A stretch of 64,000 nt of DNA from Micromonospora tarensis (lineage in GTDB: Bacteria; Actinomycetota; Actinomycetes; Mycobacteriales; Micromonosporaceae), in assembly GCF_016803395.1 (NCBI RefSeq), contig NZ_JAEVHL010000005.1:1-64000 (forward strand), given 5' to 3'. The notes under the pieces were generated by a model. It was not told where the DNA came from. It was given only the letters and a program-made list of their open reading frames with translations, and searched no databases. This document shows positions 6,117-28,570 of this stretch, piece after piece. How positions within the stretch are numbered: position 1 is the stretch's first letter; every line of letters starts with the position of its first letter. A program made the position numbers and the translations under genes.

Positions 6117-7261
6117 ATGTCGGGGGCGTGGTGGCGTGGTCGACCGGCGGACACCGCCCTGGTGCTCGCCGTCGGTCTGGTCGCCCTCGTCGGCCTGGTG
6201 GTGCAGTCACACGGCATCGACACCACCGCCGAATGGGCCGCGCTGCCGGTGGTGTTGGCCTCCTCCGGTGCGCTGCTCGTCCGCCGTGGCCATCCGGTGC
6301 CGGTGGGCGTCGTGGCGCTCGCCGCGGTCGGCGCGTACGGGGCGTTGCTGCATCGGCCCGGCCCGATCATGCTGGTCTTCGTCGTGGCGCTCTACACAGT
6401 TGTCGACGAGGGATTTCTCTGGGTCGCCATCGGGCTCGGCGTCGCCTCGGTGATCGCCTTCGCCGTCGCGGACAACGACAACCGGTCTCCGGGCAGCATG
6501 AACGGGGCGACCCTGCTGCACGCCGGTTGGCTGGTCGCGGTCATCGTCGGGGTGACCCGTAACCGCCGGGCCTATCTCGCGGAGGCGCAGGCTCGGGCGG
6601 TCGCCGCCGAGCGGCGGACGGAGGAGGAGGCCGGCGCCGGGCCACCGAGGAGCGGCTACGCATCGCCCGCGAGCTGCACGACGTCCTCGGCCATCACCTT
6701 TCGCTGATCAATGTGCAGGCCAGTGCCGCGCTGCACCGGCCGGACCCGACCCGCTCCGAGCAGGCGCTCACCGCGATCAAGCAGACCAGCAAGGAGACGC
6801 TGCGGGAGTTGCGGGCGACGCTGGGCGTGCTGCGGCAGGAGGGCGCGGCAGGTGTGGTGGCCGCACCCGGCCTGACCCGCCTGCGGGAGTTGGTCACGAC
6901 GGCCGGTCGGGCCGAGCTGGAGATCCGCGCCGAACTCGCCGAAACCCGATCGCTGCCGCCGGAGGTCGACCTGGCGGTGTACCGGATCGTCCAGGAGGCC
7001 CTCACCAACGTGGCGCGGCACGCGGGCGCCACCGCCGCGGTGGTCCGGGTCCGGCCCGACCAGGACGACGTGCTCGTCGAGGTCGAGGACGACGGCACCG
7101 GCCAACCGGGCGCGCCGGGCAGCGGCATCATCGGTATGCGTGAGCGGGCACGAGCGCTCGGCGGTTCGTTGACCACGGGGCCGCAGCCGGGCGGCGGCTT
7201 CCGGGTCAGCGCCCGACTGCCGCTGCGACCCGAACCGACACCGGCGGGGGAGCAGCCGTGA
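6117..7261 (+). pseudogene. Two-component sensor histidine kinase (NarL-type partner), interrupted by a frameshift
   Basis: The 5' frame (6117 to about 6640) encodes an N-terminal domain with about six membrane segments ending AEAQARAVAAERRTEEEAG. The 3' frame (about 6640 to 7261) resumes with RATEERLRIARELHDVLGHH, the HisKA_3 phospho-acceptor box, then the HATPase (VYRIVQEALTNVARHAGA, VEDDGTG, GIIGMRERARALGG). Restoring one base near 6638-6641 makes one continuous kinase of about 381 residues, so this is probably a sequencing error, though real inactivation is possible. The ATG at 6117 is preferred over the TTG at 6021 because the membrane domain begins there. The stop overlaps the GTG start of the response regulator. 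Confidence 0.75.
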
Positions 7262-7920
7262 TCCGGCTGCTGCTCGTCGACGACCAGACGCTGGTACGCG
7301 CCGGCTTCCGGTCCATTTTGGACGGCGAGGACGGCATCGAGGTGGTCGGTGAGGCCGCCGACGGGGCCGAGGCGGTGCGGCTGGCCGGGCAGCTGCGGCC
7401 GGATGTCGTCCTGATGGACATCCGGATGCCCGTGCTGGACGGCCTCGCCGCCACCGGGCAGATCATCGCGACCTCGGCGGCCCGCGTGATCATCCTGAGC
7501 ACGTTCGACCTGGACGAGTACGTCTACGGTGCGCTGCGGGCCGGGGCGAGTGGCTTCCTGGTCAAGGACACCGAACCGGCGGAGTTGATCCACGGGGTGC
7601 GGGTGGTGGCCCGGGGTGACGCGCTGATCGCACCGTCGATCACCCGCCGGTTGATCGCCGAGTTCGCGGCCCGGGCCGGGCAACCGGACCCGGGGCCGCG
7701 ACTGAGCGTGCTCACCGAGCGGGAGCGCGAGGTGCTGACGTTGGTCGCCGCCGGCCTCTCCAACGACGAGATCGCCGCGCGGTTGGTGTTGAGCCCGGCC
7801 ACCGCCAAGACACATGTCAGTCGGATCATGACCAAGACACAGGTGCGGGACCGGGCGCAGTTGGTGATCCTCGCCTACGAGTCCGGGCTGACCGTGCCCG
7901 GCTGGCTGGCCCGCGCCTGA
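7258..7920 (+). CDS. NarL/LuxR-family response regulator
   Basis: 220 residues with a GTG start overlapping the kinase stop (GTGA). The receiver domain begins IRLLLVDDQTLVRAGFRSIL. The phospho-acceptor Asp is near residue 54 in VVLMDIRMPVLDGL, with the conserved Lys in GFLVKDTEP. The C-terminal LuxR helix-turn-helix reads LTEREREVLTLVAAGLSNDE followed by IAARLVLSPATAKTHVSRIM. Partner of the kinase encoded immediately upstream; a plausible target is the ABC exporter operon just before it, as often seen for such pairs. Confidence 0.9.
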   Translation: MIRLLLVDDQTLVRAGFRSILDGEDGIEVVGEAADGAEAVRLAGQLRPDVVLMDIRMPVLDGLAATGQIIATSAARVIILSTFDLDEYVYGALRAGASGFLVKDTEPAELIHGVRVVARGDALIAPSITRRLIAEFAARAGQPDPGPRLSVLTEREREVLTLVAAGLSNDEIAARLVLSPATAKTHVSRIMTKTQVRDRAQLVILAYESGLTVPGWLARA

Positions 7921-21408: not shown

Positions 21409-21690
21409 TCAGGACGCGACGACGTCCAGGGCCGCGGCCGTGCGGACCGACGCCTCCGGGCTCCAGAGGTACGTCCGAAGGCGAGCTGTCCGTTCACGAA
21501 CGTCGGGACGAACCGCCACCGCACCGACAGCGGACCGTCCAGCAGGAACCGCCGGATCGCGGCCTGTGACGATCTTGTAGAGCCGGACGCGTAGCGCGCC
21601 TCGATCCTCGTACCGGTGTCGGTTCTGCCAGGCGCGCGTGAAGGTCGCGGTACTCGTCGATCAGCCGAGCAAGCGTCACGGTGGTGCGGC
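21409..21690 (-). pseudogene. Relic of an ECF-type sigma factor with SnoaL-like tail
   Basis: Joining minus-strand frames recovers FTRAWQNRHRYEDRGALRVR followed by LYKIVT, which matches the sigma-70 region 2 signature (FLRAW....RYEGR.ALR.WLYRIAT). Then IRRFLLDGPLSVRWRFVPTF, VNGQLAFG and YLWSPEASVRTAAALDVVAS to a stop at 21409-21411, which matches the C-terminal SnoaL-like domain of large ECF sigma factors (ANGQPAFG.Y...ALDV). The middle, including sigma region 4 and the helix-turn-helix, is missing, and at least three frame changes are needed. This is a genuine deletion remnant, not just sequencing error. Confidence 0.55.
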
Positions 21691-21779
21691 CTACCGCCGG
21701 CACGGCGGACGTCTGCCCGTCGTGCGATCGGGCTGGCGGTCGCAAGGACTGTTCCGGTCGTGGCCGGGTAGGTGCCGCC

Positions 21780-22927
21780 ATGGTCGCTGCCGGTCGGCGC
21801 GGAGCGGACGCGGGCGCTCCGGCCGTCGTCCGACTCTGGGGTCGCCTGGTGGCGACGCTGCGCGATCGGTTCCGTCGGGTGCGGACCATCGGCGGCCTCG
21901 CCGTGCAGGCCGGGCTGGCCGCGGCGCTGTCCTGGTTCGTGGCGCACGAGCTGTTGCACGTGTCGCAGCCGGTCTTCGCGCCGATCTCGGCAGTCTCGAC
22001 GCTGGCCGCCTCTGTCGGTCAGCGGCTGCGCCGCACCGTGGAGCTGATCATCGGTGTCACCGTCGGGGTGCTGATCGGTGATCTGCTGCTCGTGGTGATC
22101 GGCACCGGGTGGTGGCAACTCGCTCTGATCGTGGTGCTGGCGATCGTTGTCGCGCTGTTCCTCGCGGGCAGCGCGGCGGTGGTGATCCAGGCCGGGGCGA
22201 CCGCGGTGCTGATCTCCACGCTCAGTCCGTCCATCCGCGATCTGGAGATCCCCCGCTTCGTGGACGCGCTTGTCGGGGGAGGGATGGCGCTGCTGGTCAC
22301 CGCCGTGCTGCTGCCGCTGAACCCGCTGCGGGTGCTCAACCGGGCGGCACGACCGGTGTTGGAACTGCTCGTCACCCAGCTCGATGCCACTGCCGAGGCG
22401 CTCCGCGCGCGCGACGCCGCGCGGGCCCGTACCGCCCGGGGCGAGCTGCGGCAGAGCGCGGGCCCGTTGAAGGCCTTCGTGGAGGCGACCCAGGGAGCTC
22501 GGGAGGCCAGCACCCTGTCGCCGGTGTACTGGCACCAGCGGCACGGGCCGGTGGGCCGCTACGCGCAGGCCGCGGAGCCGATCGACCGGGCGATGCGCAA
22601 CAGCGGAACGCTGATCCGGCGGGCGGTGACGCTGATCGAGGACGGGGAGCCGGTTCCGGAGTCGCTGCCGGGGGCGGTGGGCGATCTCGCCGAGGCCGTC
22701 CGATCGCTCAAGCGGCAGTTCGCCGCCGCCGATGAACCGCACCGGCCCGGGAGCAGGCGCTACGGGCGGTCCGGACGGCGGGCCACGCCTACCGGGCGGG
22801 GGTCGGCTTCTCGGGGGCGGTGGTGGTGGCACAGGTCCGGACCACGGTCAGCGACCTCCTGGTGGCCAGTGGGTTGACCCAGGAGGAGGCGAATCGCCTG
22901 GTCCGGAGGGCTTTCGGGGACCTTTGA
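21780..22927 (+). pseudogene. FUSC/aromatic-acid-exporter-like membrane protein, frameshift near 3' end
   Basis: Starts MVAAGRRGADAGAPAVVRLW. The N-terminal half has about six membrane segments (TIGGLAVQAGLAAALSWFV, PVFAPISAVSTLAASVGQRL, LIIGVTVGVLIGDLLLVVIG, LALIVVLAIVVALFLAG, ALVGGGMALLVTAVLLPL), the FUSC/YgaE-like fold. The second half is helical and cytosolic (PVLELLVTQLDATAEALRAR). At about 22745 the frame is lost after AAADEPHR. Restoring one G gives AREQALRAVRTAGHAYRAGV and VRTTVSDLLVASGLTQEEAN to a stop at 22925-22927, a natural ending. Total about 382 residues. Members export aromatic acids or small amphipathic molecules, or have unknown roles. Confidence 0.7.
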
Positions 22928-22956: not shown

Positions 22957-23021
22957 GGTGGCACCTTTGTGAGCCAAAGACTGTTGCAGTCTGAGCCAAA
23001 GTGGTGCCATCATGGTGCCAT
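22957..23021 (+). promoter_or_regulatory. Nested direct and inverted repeats before the ribbon-helix-helix gene
   Basis: Two copies of TGAGCCAAAG (22970-22979 and 22992-23001) are 22 bp apart. Between them is a perfect inverted repeat AGACTG-TTG-CAGTCT (22978-22992). Then come two copies of TGGTGCCAT (23002-23010 and 23013-23021), 11 bp apart, the second overlapping the start codon, plus an inverted half-site TGGCACC at 22959-22965. Spacing by whole helical turns fits cooperative binding by a small dimeric regulator, probably the adjacent gene product. Confidence 0.55.
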
Positions 23022-23544
23022 GGAGCTGAGGTCATACGTCGAGAACCTGCGAGACGAGTTCGCCGTGGCCGCCGAGGGCGTGGACCCGGAGGGTCGGGCA
23101 CTGGCCGAACGACTCTTCACCCAGTTGGAGGCGGCCACCCGTCTCACGCTGCTGGAGGCACTGTCCGACGCCGCCGACGAGATCACCCGGGACCTCGCCC
23201 CGGGGTCGGTGCACGTTCGGTTGCGCGGGCGCGAACCCGACTTCGTGGTGACGCCGGCCAGCCCACCGGTCGAGGCGGTGCACGACGTCACCGGCCCACC
23301 CCCGCTGTCGGCGCCACTGCCCGCGCCCGAGGGTGACGACGGCGGCACCTCGCGGATCAACCTGCGCCTTCCCGACCATCTGAAAGCCAGCGTCGAGGAG
23401 GCCGCCGGCCGGGCCGGGCTGTCGGTCAACGCCTGGCTGGTGCGCGCCGTGGCCGGCGCCGTCGCCGGCGGCGAGACGGAGCGTCGTCCGCCCCGTCGGC
23501 CGGAACCGCGCTCCGGCCAGCACTTCACCGGCTGGGCGCGCTGA
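23020..23544 (+). CDS. Ribbon-helix-helix (HicB/Arc-like) protein
   Basis: 174 residues from the ATG at 23020. The N-terminal half is helical and acidic (MELRSYVENLRDEFAVAAEG, RLFTQLEAATRLTLLEALSD). A Pro-rich linker follows (SPPVEAVHDVTGPPPLSAPL), then a ribbon-helix-helix DNA-binding unit SRINLRLPDHLKASVEEAAG followed by RAGLSVNAWLVRAVAGAVAG (about 111-150). This is the fold of HicB antitoxins and Arc/MetJ repressors. No HicA toxin gene is adjacent. It instead heads an operon-like string with a DUF4097 protein and a DrrAB-type ABC transporter, so it probably represses that string through the repeats before its start. Confidence 0.75.
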   Translation: MELRSYVENLRDEFAVAAEGVDPEGRALAERLFTQLEAATRLTLLEALSDAADEITRDLAPGSVHVRLRGREPDFVVTPASPPVEAVHDVTGPPPLSAPLPAPEGDDGGTSRINLRLPDHLKASVEEAAGRAGLSVNAWLVRAVAGAVAGGETERRPPRRPEPRSGQHFTGWAR

Positions 23545-23619
23545 CCCCCTCCCGGTTGACCCTTCCACCGCGCCGCTGACCAGCGGCGATCGTCGCCGAC
23601 CACCTTTCGGGAGAGCACC

Positions 23620-24462
23620 ATGCCTGTTTTCGACACACCAGAACCGATTTCCGCCCGGATCGAGATGCCGGTCGGGGACGTCTGGATCGCCGCCAGCGAC
23701 CGCACCGACACGGTGGTGACGGTGCGTCCACGCGACCCGTCCAGCAAGGCCGACCTGAGCGCCGCCGAACAGACCACCGTCGAGTTCACCGCCGGGCAAC
23801 TGGTGATCAGGGTGCCGAAGAGTTGGCGCCGCTACGGGTTCGGCGCCGGGCCGTCGGTCGACGTCCTGGTCGAGCTGCCGACCGGGTCGCGGCTGCACGC
23901 CGAGTCGTCGTGGGCGGCATTCCGCGGCGAGGGTCGACTCGGCGAGTGTCGGATCAAGACCGGCGGTAACGTCCGGCTCGACGAGACCGGGCCGCTGGAG
24001 ATCGATTCCAGCCACGGCGAGGTCGCGGTCGAGCGCGTCCTGGGCGCCGCGCGGGTGAAGGCGTCGTCCGGCAAGGTGCGCCTCGGCGTGGTCGACGGCA
24101 CGGCCGAGATAAAGAACTCCTCCGGTGACTGCTGGATCGGCAGCACCGGCGGCGACGCCCGGATCAACACCGCGTACGGCGACGTCACAGTGGACGCGTC
24201 GATGGCCTCGGTGACCGCCCGCACCGCGTACGGCAACCTCCGGCTGGGCGAGATCGTGCGCGGGGCGATCGAGTTGCAGACCTCCTACGGCGCGATCGAG
24301 GTCGGCATCCGTCGCGGCACGGCGGCCTGGCTCGACGTGAGTTCCAAACACGGTCGGGTGCACAACGCGCTCGAGTCCACCGACAGCCCGGCGCAGACCG
24401 ACGAGACGGTCGAGGTCCGGGCGAACACCTCCTACGGCGACATCACCATCCGCCGGGCCTGA
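23620..24462 (+). CDS. DUF4097-family beta-strand repeat protein
   Basis: 280 residues, start preceded by TTTCGGGAGAG. It consists of a regular series of short beta-strand repeats such as GPLEIDSSHGEVAVERVLGA, ARVKASSGKVRLGVVDGTAE, IKNSSGDCWIGSTGGDARIN and TAYGDVTVDASMASVTARTA, ending TSYGDITIRRA, predicting a right-handed beta-helix or stacked sheet. There is no signal peptide, so it is probably cytosolic. Function unknown. The fixed position between the ribbon-helix-helix gene and an ABC-2 transporter suggests a role as sensor, scaffold or accessory to that transporter. Confidence 0.8.
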   Translation: MPVFDTPEPISARIEMPVGDVWIAASDRTDTVVTVRPRDPSSKADLSAAEQTTVEFTAGQLVIRVPKSWRRYGFGAGPSVDVLVELPTGSRLHAESSWAAFRGEGRLGECRIKTGGNVRLDETGPLEIDSSHGEVAVERVLGAARVKASSGKVRLGVVDGTAEIKNSSGDCWIGSTGGDARINTAYGDVTVDASMASVTARTAYGNLRLGEIVRGAIELQTSYGAIEVGIRRGTAAWLDVSSKHGRVHNALESTDSPAQTDETVEVRANTSYGDITIRRA

Positions 24463-24495
24463 CCCGACACCACCGAGACCACTGATGAGGAGACC

Positions 24496-25473
24496 ATGAC
24501 CAGCTCCACGAAGCCCGCGATCGTCGCCACCGACCTACGGAAGTCCTACGGCGACAAGGTCGTGCTGGACGGCATCGACCTGATGATCACCGAGGGCACG
24601 ATCTTCGCGTTGCTCGGGCCCAACGGCGCCGGCAAGACCACCACAGTGCAGATCCTCTCCACCCTGGTGAACGCCGACGGCGGCACCGCCCGGGTCTTCG
24701 GCCACGACCTGACCCGGGAGCCCGACGCGGTACGCGAGCTGATCGGCGTCACCGGCCAGTTCTCCGCCGTCGACAATCTGCTCACCGGGCGGGAGAACCT
24801 CAACCTGATGGCCGATCTCTGTCACCTGGACCGGGCGGCCGGGCGGCGACGGATCACCGACCTGCTCGACCAGTTCGACCTGGTTGAGGCGGCGGGCAAG
24901 CCGGTGTCGACGTACTCCGGCGGCATGCGGCGGCGGCTCGACCTCGCGATGACCCTGGTCGGCGAGCCCCGCGTCATCTTCCTCGACGAGCCGACCACCG
25001 GCCTCGACCCGCGCAGCCGCCGAGCCATGTGGCAGATCATCCGCGCGCTCGTGGCCGAGGGCGTCACCATCCTGCTCACCACGCAGTATCTGGAGGAGGC
25101 CGACCAGCTCGCCGACCGGGTCGCCTTCCTCGACCACGGCCGACTGATCGCCGAGGGCACGCCGCGCGAACTCAAGCGGCTCATTCCGGGCGGCCACGTG
25201 GTGTTGCACTTCGCCGACCAGGAGGGGCTCGACACGGCGGCCCGCACGTTCGTGACCGCCACCCGTGACGAGGCGGCGCTCACCCTCCAGGTGCCGAGCG
25301 ACGGCGGGGTCGGGTCACTGCGTGCCCTGCTCGACCAGCTGGACCGCGGCTCGATCAGCGTGGCCGGGCTCTCCGTGCACACCCCCGATCTCGACGACGT
25401 CTTCCTCGCCCTCACCGGCCAACCCGACATCCGGGCCGGCCGACCCGACCACGAAAGGTCTGCCGCGCGATGA
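24496..25473 (+). CDS. ABC transporter ATP-binding protein, DrrA-like
   Basis: 325 residues, start preceded by GAGGAGACC. Walker A GPNGAGKTTTVQIL (near 43-56), the Q-loop in VTGQFSAVDNLLTGRENL, signature STYSGGMRRRLDLAMTLVGE, Walker B VIFLDEPTTGLDPRSR, and LLTTQYLEEADQLADRVAFL. The C-terminal extension (HVVLHFADQEGLDTAA..) with VHTPDLDDVFLALTGQ is typical of the daunorubicin-resistance DrrA group of ABC-2 exporters. Its stop overlaps the ATG of the permease gene by 4 bp. It energises efflux of a hydrophobic compound, probably a drug or lipid; substrate not predictable. Confidence 0.92.
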   Translation: MTSSTKPAIVATDLRKSYGDKVVLDGIDLMITEGTIFALLGPNGAGKTTTVQILSTLVNADGGTARVFGHDLTREPDAVRELIGVTGQFSAVDNLLTGRENLNLMADLCHLDRAAGRRRITDLLDQFDLVEAAGKPVSTYSGGMRRRLDLAMTLVGEPRVIFLDEPTTGLDPRSRRAMWQIIRALVAEGVTILLTTQYLEEADQLADRVAFLDHGRLIAEGTPRELKRLIPGGHVVLHFADQEGLDTAARTFVTATRDEAALTLQVPSDGGVGSLRALLDQLDRGSISVAGLSVHTPDLDDVFLALTGQPDIRAGRPDHERSAAR

Positions 25474-26258
25474 GCACCCTCTCCCTCGCCGCCCGCGACT
25501 CGGGCACGATGCTGCGGCGCAACCTCCTGCACATGCGGCGCTACCCGTCGATGACCCTGCTGCTCATCGGCATCCCGGTCATCCTCCTGCTGCTCTTCGT
25601 GTACGTCTTCGGTGGCACGCTCGGCGCCGGCCTCGGGCCGTCCGGCGACCGCTCCGACTACGCCAACTACGTCACGCCCGGCATCCTGCTCATCACGGTG
25701 GTCAGCGCGGCGCAGGGCACCGCCATCTCGGTCGCGATGGACATGACCGAGGGCATCATCGCCCGGTTCCGGACGATGGCGATCTTTCGACCGTCGGTGC
25801 TGACCGGCCACGTACTGGGCAGCCTGATCCAGACCATGCTCGGCCTCGCGGCCGTCACCGGGGTGGCGCTGCTCATCGGCTTCCGGCCCACGGCCGGCCC
25901 GGTCGAGTGGCTCGCCGTGATCGGCGTCCTCGCCATGATCACCTTTGCGCTGACCTGGCTCTCCGTCGCTCTCGGTTTGGTGAGCGACAGTGTCGAGACG
26001 GCCAGCAACCTGCCCATGCCGCTGATCCTCCTGCCGTTTTTGGGCAGCGGCTTCGTCCCCACCGACTCCATGCCGACGCCGGTGCGCTGGTTCGCCGACT
26101 ACCAGCCCTTCACGCCGGTCATGGAGACCCTTCGTGGCCTGCTGCTCGGCTCCGGCATCGGCGCGGACGGCATCATCGCGGTTGGCTGGTGCCTCGTCAT
26201 CAGCGTGCTCTCCTTCCTCTGGGCCAAGAATCTCTACAACCGCAACCGCGCGGCCTGA
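25470..26258 (+). CDS. ABC-2 type permease, DrrB-like
   Basis: 262 residues, translationally coupled to the ATPase by an ATGA overlap. Six membrane segments are apparent: SMTLLLIGIPVILLLLFVYV, ILLITVVSAAQGTAISVAM, TMLGLAAVTGVALLIGF, WLAVIGVLAMITFALTWLS, MPLILLPFLGSGFV and GADGIIAVGWCLVISVLSFL. The motif MTEGIIARFRTMAIFRPSVL after the second helix is the coupling helix conserved in ABC-2 permeases. Together with the upstream ATPase it forms a DrrAB-type exporter. It closes the string that begins with the ribbon-helix-helix and DUF4097 genes. Confidence 0.9.
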   Translation: MSTLSLAARDSGTMLRRNLLHMRRYPSMTLLLIGIPVILLLLFVYVFGGTLGAGLGPSGDRSDYANYVTPGILLITVVSAAQGTAISVAMDMTEGIIARFRTMAIFRPSVLTGHVLGSLIQTMLGLAAVTGVALLIGFRPTAGPVEWLAVIGVLAMITFALTWLSVALGLVSDSVETASNLPMPLILLPFLGSGFVPTDSMPTPVRWFADYQPFTPVMETLRGLLLGSGIGADGIIAVGWCLVISVLSFLWAKNLYNRNRAA

Positions 26259-26459: not shown

Positions 26460-26577
26460 CGCGCTGCGGAGTCGGCAGTGCCCGATGGGCGGTGTCTCTG
26501 GTGGCGCTCGGTCATGAGCATGCGGCGCTGGAGGGTCGTTCCGTGGCGATAAGCCGGAGCGCACTGAGGCCCGATGA

Positions 26578-26591
26578 TGTTATCGCTGACA
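26578..26591. promoter_or_regulatory. LacI-type operator O2 (araB region)
   Basis: TGTTATCGCTGACA, one mismatch from a palindrome of the same class, 132 bp from O1 and 269 bp from O3. Confidence 0.65.
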
Positions 26592-26832
26592 TCGCGACCG
26601 GTCCGGTGGCTGGTCGCGATCGGACGGTTGTCGCACGGTCTCGCCGGGCGCTGCTTCCTGTCACCCGCCTGCCGACGGTGTCGGTCGGGTCGGCGGGCCG
26701 CGGTAGGCCACTCCGGGCGGCCGTGTCCGGACCTGGCGCAGAATTCGTGTCTTTTGCCCCTATCCGACCTGAAATCGCCCAAGTCGGTATCCGCTTCTGC
26801 GTTCCGTTACGGAGCTGTTGCGGGTGGATGTC

Positions 26833-26861
26833 TTGACGAGTCTGGATGTGAGCGTTAACAC
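26833..26861 (+). promoter_or_regulatory. araB promoter with overlapping LacI-type operator O3
   Basis: TTGACG at 26833-26838, 17-bp spacing, TAACAC at 26856-26861. Operator TGTGAGCGTTAACA covers 26847-26860, overlapping the -10 box, so binding would block RNA polymerase. The same arrangement is seen before the second sugar-binding protein gene at 41.7 kb. Confidence 0.7.
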
Positions 26862-26887
26862 TATCCCCGTTAACGGTGGAGGTGAAC

Positions 26888-28570
26888 ATGAACCGTGTGG
26901 ACGGAGCTGACGACCGCTACGTCGTCGGTGTCGACTTCGGCACCCTGTCCGGGCGAGCTCTGGTGGTCCGTGTCGGTGATGGTGCCGAGTTGGGGACCGC
27001 GGTGCACGAGTACGGCGACGGCGTGATCAGCACGGCGCTTCCGGGAGGTCGATCGCTACCCCCGGACTGGGCCCTGCAGAATCCGGACGACTACCGCGAC
27101 GTCCTGCGGTACGCCGTGCCGGCGGCGGTGTCCGCCGCCGGAGTGGACCCGGCGGCGGTGGTCGGCATCGGCATCGACTTCACCGCCTGCACGGTGCTGC
27201 CGACCCTCGCCGACGGCACTCCGCTCTGCGAGACGCCCGAGCTGCGGGACCGGCCGCACGCCTGGGTCAAGCTGTGGAAGCACCACGCCGCGCAGCCGCA
27301 CGCCGACCGGATCAACGCGCTGGCCCACGAGCGGGCGGAGCCGTGGATCGGCCGCTACGGCGGCAAGATCTCCGCCGAGTGGCAGTTCGCCAAGGGTCTA
27401 CAGATCCTGGAGGAGGACCCGGAGGTCTACGACCGGGCCGAGCGCTTCATCGAGGCGGCCGACTGGATCGTCTGGCAGCTCTGCGGCGCCGAGACCCGCA
27501 ACGTCTGCACTGCCGGCTACAAGGGCATCCTGCAGGACGGCCAGTACCCGTCCGAGGAGTTCCTGACCGCGCTCAACCCCGCCTTCGGTGACTTCGTGGC
27601 CAAGCTGGACGGTCCGTTGCTGCCGCTGGGTGACCGGGCCGGCGCGCTCACCGCCCAGGCCGCCGCGTGGACCGGTCTGCCGGAGGGGATCGCGGTGGCC
27701 GTCGGCAACGTCGACGCGCACGTCACCGCGGCGTCCGCCCAGGCCGTGGAGCCCGGCCGGCTGGTCGCCATCATGGGCACCTCCACCTGTCACGTGGTCA
27801 ACGGTGCCCAGGTCGCCGAGGTGGCCGGCATGTGTGGTGTCGTGGACGGTGGCATCAGCCCCGGCGCGTGGGGTTACGAGGCCGGGCAGAGCGGTGTCGG
27901 CGACATCTTCGGGTGGTTCGTCGAACACGCCGCCCCGGCCGGTGTCGCCTCGCACGAACGCCTCACCGAGTTGGCCGCGAGCCAGCCCGTCGGCGCCCAC
28001 GGCCTGATCGCTCTGGACTGGTGGAACGGCAACCGCTCGTTGCTGGTCAACCACGACCTGAGCGGCATGATCGTCGGGATGACCCTGGCCACCAGGCCGC
28101 AGGACATCTACCGGGCGCTGCTGGAGTCCACCGCGTACGGCACGCGGATGATCATCGAGGCGTTCGTCGACGCCGGAGTCGCGGTGAACGACCTGGTGAT
28201 CGCCGGTGGCCTCACCAACAACGCGCTGCTGATGCAGATCTACGCCGACGTGACCAGGCGGCCGCTGAACATCATCGCCTCGGCGCAGGGGCCGGCGCTG
28301 GGCTCGGCGATTCACGCCGCCGTCGCCGCCGGCGCGTACCCGTCCATCCACGAGGCCTCGCAGGCGATGGGCCGGGTGCACGAGGCCGTCTACCGTCCGG
28401 ACCCCGAGCGGGCCCGCGCCTACGACGCCCTGTACGCCGAGTACCGGACACTGCACGACCACTTCGGACGCGGCGGCAACGACGTCCTGCTCCGCCTGCG
28501 GGCGATCCGCAACGCGGCGGTGGTGACCGCCGCCAGCACACCCGAGACCGCATTGGAGGTGGTCGCGTGA
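26888..28570 (+). CDS. araB: Ribulokinase
   Basis: 560 residues from the ATG at 26888, chosen over the GTG at 26876 because of GGAGGTG placed just upstream. FGGY-kinase features: VVGVDFGTLSGRALVVR at the N-terminus, GIGIDFTACTVLP, then PHAWVKLWKHHAAQPHADRI and the ribulokinase signature KISAEWQFAKGLQILEEDPE. The ATPase half has VAIMGTSTCHVVN, GLIALDWWNGNRSLLVNHDL, VIAGGLTNNALLMQIYADVT and QGPALGSAIHAAVAAGAYP. It phosphorylates L-ribulose to L-ribulose 5-phosphate in arabinose catabolism. First gene of an araB-araD pair with a 4-bp overlap, under three LacI-type operators. Confidence 0.95.
   Translation: MNRVDGADDRYVVGVDFGTLSGRALVVRVGDGAELGTAVHEYGDGVISTALPGGRSLPPDWALQNPDDYRDVLRYAVPAAVSAAGVDPAAVVGIGIDFTACTVLPTLADGTPLCETPELRDRPHAWVKLWKHHAAQPHADRINALAHERAEPWIGRYGGKISAEWQFAKGLQILEEDPEVYDRAERFIEAADWIVWQLCGAETRNVCTAGYKGILQDGQYPSEEFLTALNPAFGDFVAKLDGPLLPLGDRAGALTAQAAAWTGLPEGIAVAVGNVDAHVTAASAQAVEPGRLVAIMGTSTCHVVNGAQVAEVAGMCGVVDGGISPGAWGYEAGQSGVGDIFGWFVEHAAPAGVASHERLTELAASQPVGAHGLIALDWWNGNRSLLVNHDLSGMIVGMTLATRPQDIYRALLESTAYGTRMIIEAFVDAGVAVNDLVIAGGLTNNALLMQIYADVTRRPLNIIASAQGPALGSAIHAAVAAGAYPSIHEASQAMGRVHEAVYRPDPERARAYDALYAEYRTLHDHFGRGGNDVLLRLRAIRNAAVVTAASTPETALEVVA

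Follow-up and report, generated by a model that had tools for sequence, protein, structure and literature searches.

A putative autoregulated operon in Micromonospora tarensis pairs a ribbon-helix-helix protein with a Toastrack partner ahead of a DrrAB-type exporter

A 64,000-nt stretch of the Micromonospora tarensis genome (assembly GCF_016803395.1, contig NZ_JAEVHL010000005.1, positions 1 to 64,000; hereafter the window) carries four genes in a row on the + strand, at 23020-26258. They encode a ribbon-helix-helix (RHH) protein, a Toastrack/DUF4097 protein, a DrrA-type ATP-binding cassette (ABC) ATPase and an ABC-2 permease. On balance, we favour a reading in which the four form an autoregulated operon: the RHH protein would be a repressor held by its C-terminal tail to a cytosolic Toastrack partner, and this partnership would tune the repression of a DrrAB-type exporter. 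Judged by gene order in related loci, the conserved core is the RHH-Toastrack pair, and the exporter, although common, is a third part that loci can lack. Gene calls and Pfam and NCBIfam searches bore out the four genes and the coordinates given in a first-pass annotation of the window:

23020..23544, + strand: RHH protein, proposed autorepressor (174 aa, ATG start)
23620..24462, + strand: Toastrack/DUF4097 protein, a beta-helix predicted to be cytosolic (PF13349, structure matches, hydropathy)
24496..25473, + strand: DrrA-subfamily ABC ATPase (TIGR01188 above cut-off)
25470..26258, + strand: ABC-2 permease (PF01061; a crude hydropathy scan shows five hydrophobic stretches)

The permease start overlaps the ATPase stop by 4 bases.

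We compared gene order at 80 named loci, the best 80 of at least 595 matches to the RHH protein. Because only these were taken, the sample is skewed to near relatives; the top named relatives among the matches listed were from Micromonospora (80-88% identity), with one from Plantactinospora (82%). The Toastrack gene lay next to the RHH gene in 79 of the 80 loci. Exporter genes were counted by tblastn with the window's proteins in the 68 named loci with at least 3 kb downstream. All four genes were present in 56 of these, and the RHH-Toastrack pair stood without a full exporter in 11, one of which (L112) retains a 35-aa ATPase match. The last, L078, was the sole locus with RHH and exporter genes and no Toastrack gene, and the gap between its RHH and ATPase genes held no Toastrack remnant. 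The first-pass annotation would have been undone by finding the four genes apart in relatives; they co-occur in many actinobacteria. Counted from the other partner, the best 30 Toastrack loci of the source and related genomes, including the frameshifted L024, had an RHH gene in every case, ATPase similarity in 29 and permease similarity in 28.

In a spread sample of the phylum, an RHH profile was found in 46 of 396 genomes, the source genome included. The Toastrack gene follows in 18 of 20 distant loci (the two genes are fused in L133, and in L127 the contig stops within Toastrack), and an ATPase-permease pair adjoins the RHH-Toastrack genes in none of the 20. Among 18 nearer loci, 13 have all four genes; in three the contig runs out after reaching the ATPase, and in two it breaks off sooner. 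It is because Toastrack comes next in 79/80 named and 18/20 distant loci, against 56/68 and 0/20 for the exporter, that we place the core in the pair. The earlier proposal that the DUF4097 protein may dock with the transporter is accordingly not the first message of the linkage: Toastrack tracks the RHH gene even where no exporter was detected, and the candidate docking feature is the C-terminal peptide of the RHH protein, although Toastrack may contact the transporter as well. As the pair is kept without the exporter in named and distant loci, we downgraded the view of Toastrack as primarily a transporter subunit. In L133 (G343), the RHH gene and the second half of the Toastrack gene share one open frame and the tail is gone. 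This fusion was not used as proof of pairing because it is a single case and the two genes stay separate in L138, L169 and L170, loci of the same genus.

A conserved arrangement of sites at the RHH start points to autoregulation. Near-palindromic TGRYGYCA sites occur at -29, -18 and -7 of this start, that is, in 11-bp steps. They interleave with three further elements: a TTG near -35, an A..T hexamer spanning -12 to -7, and the ATG itself. The window copy has perfect sites 2 and 3 and a degenerate site 1. The features below were scored in 121 non-identical close upstream regions (132 rows minus 4 duplicates, with 7 distant rows kept apart), with 2560 mononucleotide shuffles and 132 Toastrack starts as controls:

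22984..22989, + strand: -35-like TTGCAG (TTG within 1 base in 117/121 regions; 120/2560 shuffles)
23002..23009, + strand: operator site 2, TGGTGCCA, at -18 from the ATG (103/121 match TGRYGYCA at 7 or all 8 letters; 6/2560 shuffles)
23008..23013, + strand: -10-like CATCAT, 18-nt spacer (A2 and T6 in 116/121; 93/2560 shuffles)
23013..23020, + strand: operator site 3, TGGTGCCA, whose last base is the A of the ATG (110/121; 37/2560 shuffles)

Two or more sites were present in 110 of the close regions, one shuffle and none of the Toastrack starts; both promoter features occurred in 112, two and none, respectively. Because related genomes are not independent, these counts express conservation rather than 121 separate events; the loci come from Micromonospora, Streptomyces, Nonomuraea, Actinomadura and Pseudonocardia, among others. 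In several of the 11 close regions that fell short, the same sites are shifted by one base or take a variant form, and inspection by eye picked out TGAYGTCA-like sites in no fewer than 7 of the 20 distant loci. From this layout, we infer that transcription would start at or beside the ATG, i.e., from a leaderless promoter. A consensus scan for terminators found none. One autorepressed operon is the most economical reading, and the first-pass suggestion that the genes carry their own repressor is well supported by the conserved operator.

A single copy of the exact tandem pattern is present in the source genome, and a reversed-pattern control gave no match. Across the 1.41 Mb of the 80 named loci, other tandem matches were reverse-strand readings of these sites or lay at most ∼330 bp upstream, except in L056 and L058, and none of the 80 had a second tandem operator at the exporter genes. 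In L056, the tandem site lies at +260, within the RHH gene. In L058 (Pseudonocardia acaciae), a second tandem operator at 7881-7910 lies ∼2.1 kb upstream of the RHH gene and near the upstream end of a minus-strand open reading frame (ORF; 6993-7703), TetR-like by eye. It is a possible target in trans.

The RHH protein comprises a helical N-terminal domain with a beta hairpin (residues 1-78), a linker, the RHH domain (∼110-153), a second linker and the tail. Residues ∼109-155 align to AtaR, KacA, CopG and Arc with Z scores of about 5-6 over 43-47 residues; the domain is small, and values below 8 are weak by themselves. VapB antitoxins are also among the alignments of this part, and four RHH models of Pfam match weakly. 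The pattern R-x-[NST]-x-R is present in the RHH strand of 126 of 127 proteins, which fits base reading by strand residues. Residues 1-108, searched as part of a longer chain, are hardly covered in the structure-alignment list (VIA-align), and residues 1-109 gave no Pfam match up to an E of 1. AlphaFold models the N-terminal domain as two helices and a hairpin; that of HicB is a partial RNase H-like domain.

The label HicB-like, given in the first-pass annotation, holds only for the RHH part. The HicB model PF05534 scored 20.4 bits, under its cut-off of 21, and matched only residues 112-143. Of four relatives, three exceeded that cut-off (L120, 26.8; L121, 29.5; L054, 22.3) and one fell below it (L134, 19.5). 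The HicA toxin family, PF07927, had no match anywhere in the source genome (532 contigs, 95.6% complete), in line with the earlier remark that there is no toxin here; the same search gave matches in 7 of 14 control genomes. With a sub-cut-off match confined to the RHH part and no HicA in the genome, we rejected a HicAB filing. Relatives of the protein are annotated as 'HicB family antitoxin', a label that is misleading in such operons, where the proteins are probably repressors of exporter operons.

The link between the two core proteins is suggested by the end of the RHH protein:

23518..23541, + strand: C-terminal peptide QHFTGWAR, residues 167-174, proposed Toastrack-binding strand (tail pattern, AlphaFold)

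After a variable linker, RHH proteins end in [FY]TGW[AV]R or a near form, and the tails of distant relatives have related forms, such as RLTGYGRS and RMRGTLRT. A loose tail pattern was present in 151 of the 153 RHH proteins followed by Toastrack and in one of the four that are not, fitting L078 and missing L126, L130 and the fusion L133. In an AlphaFold model of an RHH-Toastrack read-through chain (mean pLDDT 85.3, pTM 0.64), residues 167-174 form a strand (block means 72 and 64) with a disordered stretch on either side. When the RHH protein was modelled alone, using the RHH rows of the same loci, the tail was disordered (block means 46 and 44; mean pLDDT 78.7, pTM 0.47). The models suggest that the tail pairs with Toastrack, the strand's partner being a prediction.

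The Toastrack protein matched PF13349 (DUF4097) with 42.8 bits (cut-off 22.9). Its structure matches include 3lyc (Z 16.7), 4opw (Z 14.6) and 4qrk (Z 11.4), together with 3jx8, 3ljy and 3pet, which share the Z range of 14.6-16.7 with 3lyc and 4opw. 4qrk and 4opw are Toastrack examples named in PMC11237479. The beta-helix of the first-pass annotation can therefore be specified as a Toastrack fold. No hydrophobic segment was found in any of 132 Toastrack rows, the window's own copy included, and the protein is predicted to be cytosolic. A second, shorter Toastrack gene in the source genome (L158, G000:C13) has no RHH relative adjoining it. As for the exporter, the ATPase exceeded the DrrA model TIGR01188 (335.5 bits, cut-off 312.45) and the permease matched PF01061 (ABC2_membrane; 87.9 bits, cut-off 26.9). 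A small-molecule exporter is our best guess for this DrrAB-type pair. The nearest DrrAB-like paralogue found in the source genome (L159, G000:C45) has no RHH or Toastrack gene in the 14 kb examined there.

In the mechanism that we propose, RHH dimers would bind the near-palindromic 8-bp TGRYGYCA sites, whose 11-bp spacing would stack them on the same face of the DNA. The stacked dimers would cover the putative leaderless promoter from -35 to +1 and would thereby repress the whole operon. The C-terminal strand of the RHH protein is predicted to dock on the Toastrack beta-helix, so that the Toastrack protein of the same operon may sense or relay a signal. This signal might be a drug-like substrate, or it might reflect the state of the membrane or of the exporter. 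It would alter the occupancy of the repressor and thereby set the level of the exporter.

Several observations weigh against this proposal. The RHH genes L126 and L130 stand alone, indicating that the family can do without Toastrack; these two loci have TGRYGYCA-like sites at the RHH start, no TGW tail and an adjoining ORF that is dapA-like by eye. Tail and partner are also separable: in L128 and L132 the tail pattern is missing although Toastrack is present, and L078 keeps the tail though it lacks Toastrack. The structural test of the tail is one chain, with a pTM of 0.64, made by reading through two TGA codons, which places the tail near Toastrack by construction. Mutual information between RHH and Toastrack columns showed no clear couplings; tail pairs accounted for 16 of the 100 highest-scoring pairs and for 7% of all pairs, linker pairs for 30 and 18%, respectively. 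At the promoter, the exact offsets are kept in only 2 of the 7 distant rows, and a plain sigma-70 consensus scan calls no promoter at the RHH start. Finally, the TGGYGCCA form of the site is found with 84 of 98 RHH proteins that have N in the strand and with 3 of 19 that have S or T, counted in loci with any strict site (leaving out 6 and 3 loci without one, plus the frameshifted L024). This covariation was not used as proof because the tree yields few independent pairs, four supported of seven in total, and no significance.

The neighbours of other copies bear on what the pair controls. RHH-Toastrack copies occur on 43 of 72,556 plasmid records, of which nine places were examined. Three of these (L161, L162 and L168) adjoin non-ribosomal peptide synthetase (NRPS) or polyketide synthase (PKS) genes, and L160 is the lunaemycin cluster according to the table of PMC9866976, where it lists Lun1-Lun2 and a permease-DrrA-DUF4097 set (Lun25-27). 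That paper describes the lunaemycin DrrAB pair as conferring self-resistance. In L160 and L167, cytochrome P450 and ferredoxin genes follow Toastrack in place of the exporter; inspected by eye, the 75 bases leading up to the P450 gene showed no tandem operator. An NRPS-like gene lies within 10 kb in 4 of the 56 full-length loci of the genome collection, a raw count without a background rate, and we dropped enrichment in biosynthetic clusters as a claim. The few informative neighbours, namely antibiotic clusters, P450s and the self-resistance DrrAB, point to small-molecule export or detoxification rather than to the membrane-stress or lipid-flux system suggested in the first-pass annotation. 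More tentatively, and with doubt prevailing, the pair might be a general two-protein signalling unit of actinobacteria, older than the exporter, in which a beta-helix sensor captures the C-terminal strand of an autorepressor and the outputs (DrrAB, P450-ferredoxin or none) are interchangeable.

Toastrack could instead be an accessory subunit of the exporter, docked on the ATPase or acting as a scaffold beneath the membrane, with the RHH protein a local repressor that makes no contact with it. The co-occurrence of all four genes in 56/68 named loci favours this, as do the sub-membrane scaffold role proposed for Toastrack in PMC11237479 and the Lun25-27 set. We nevertheless consider it unlikely: Toastrack stays beside the RHH gene in 11/68 named and 18/20 distant loci in which a full exporter was not detected, and the RHH tail, itself conserved, goes with the presence of Toastrack. 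The plasmid copies raise a further reading, that of a self-resistance cassette for antibiotics moving with biosynthetic clusters, since 4 of the 9 places examined adjoin NRPS/PKS genes or are the lunaemycin cluster. With NRPS-like genes near only 4/56 full-length named loci, and the window copy lying between a FUSC gene and a ribulokinase gene, this seems improbable.

The two-gene order with autoregulation, the conserved C-terminal peptide, the occurrence on plasmids and the alignment of the RHH part to AtaR, KacA and VapB antitoxins, as well as to Arc and CopG, would also suit a toxin-antitoxin-like module, with RHH as the antitoxin and Toastrack as a toxin covered by the RHH tail. The Toastrack protein, however, matched no toxin or enzyme family in Pfam or NCBIfam, no HicA was found in the source genome, the Toastrack paralogue there has no RHH neighbour, and the operon usually runs on into an exporter. 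We regard such a module as very improbable and retain the autoregulated, tail-linked exporter operon as the preferred reading.

RHH repressors such as Arc, MetJ and CopG bind operators with tandem sites. The present protein resembles them in its RHH fold and in its near-palindromic promoter sites at 11-bp steps, and differs from them in having an extra helical N-terminal domain and, at its C-terminus, a peptide associated with a Toastrack partner. The likeness to HicAB is a weak similarity of the RHH part to PF05534, with no HicA in the source genome. Relative to the DrrAB daunorubicin exporter, the ATPase lies above its model but the permease is far below the cut-off of the DrrB model TIGR01247 (46.2 against 223.05 bits). 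Lia-type Toastrack stress systems share the Toastrack domain, yet the LiaG model gave 25.9 bits against a cut-off of 285, and neither PspA, PspC nor LiaI-LiaF-TM matched any of the four genes or the two flanking genes scanned.

The closest precedent is a Toastrack-ABC operon with a GntR-type factor described by Ravi et al. (2024; PMC11237479), who mention a similar actinobacterial operon with RHH instead. The four gene kinds are the same, adjacent here on one strand in a putative operon; such an operon is already mentioned in passing in that paper, and the operator, the tail and the core pair go beyond it. In the passages covered, the RHH version receives one sentence, which states no operator, C-terminal peptide or core pair. 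These three were not found in the literature searched, partly by title and abstract and with Text S2.4 of the supplement to PMC11237479 outside its scope; nor was any report found that treats DUF4097 together with HicB and an ABC transporter. The parent type of Ravi et al. has a membrane-anchored Toastrack, unlike the 132 rows here, and a DUF2884 lipoprotein, whereas the next downstream gene scanned here is a ribulokinase (a 94-aa ORF at 26574-26858 lay outside the scan). PMC11237479 also proposed that Toastrack couples to transcription and transport. In the literature passages covered, the action of Toastrack proteins is a proposal, not a result. Here, genome after genome, Toastrack goes with one proposed repressor whose operator can be read and which carries a short conserved peptide, and this pairing lets its binding partner and signal be probed directly.

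The operon is flanked upstream by a gene for a FUSC/aromatic-acid-exporter-like protein (21681-22877) and downstream by an L-ribulokinase gene (26876-28570).

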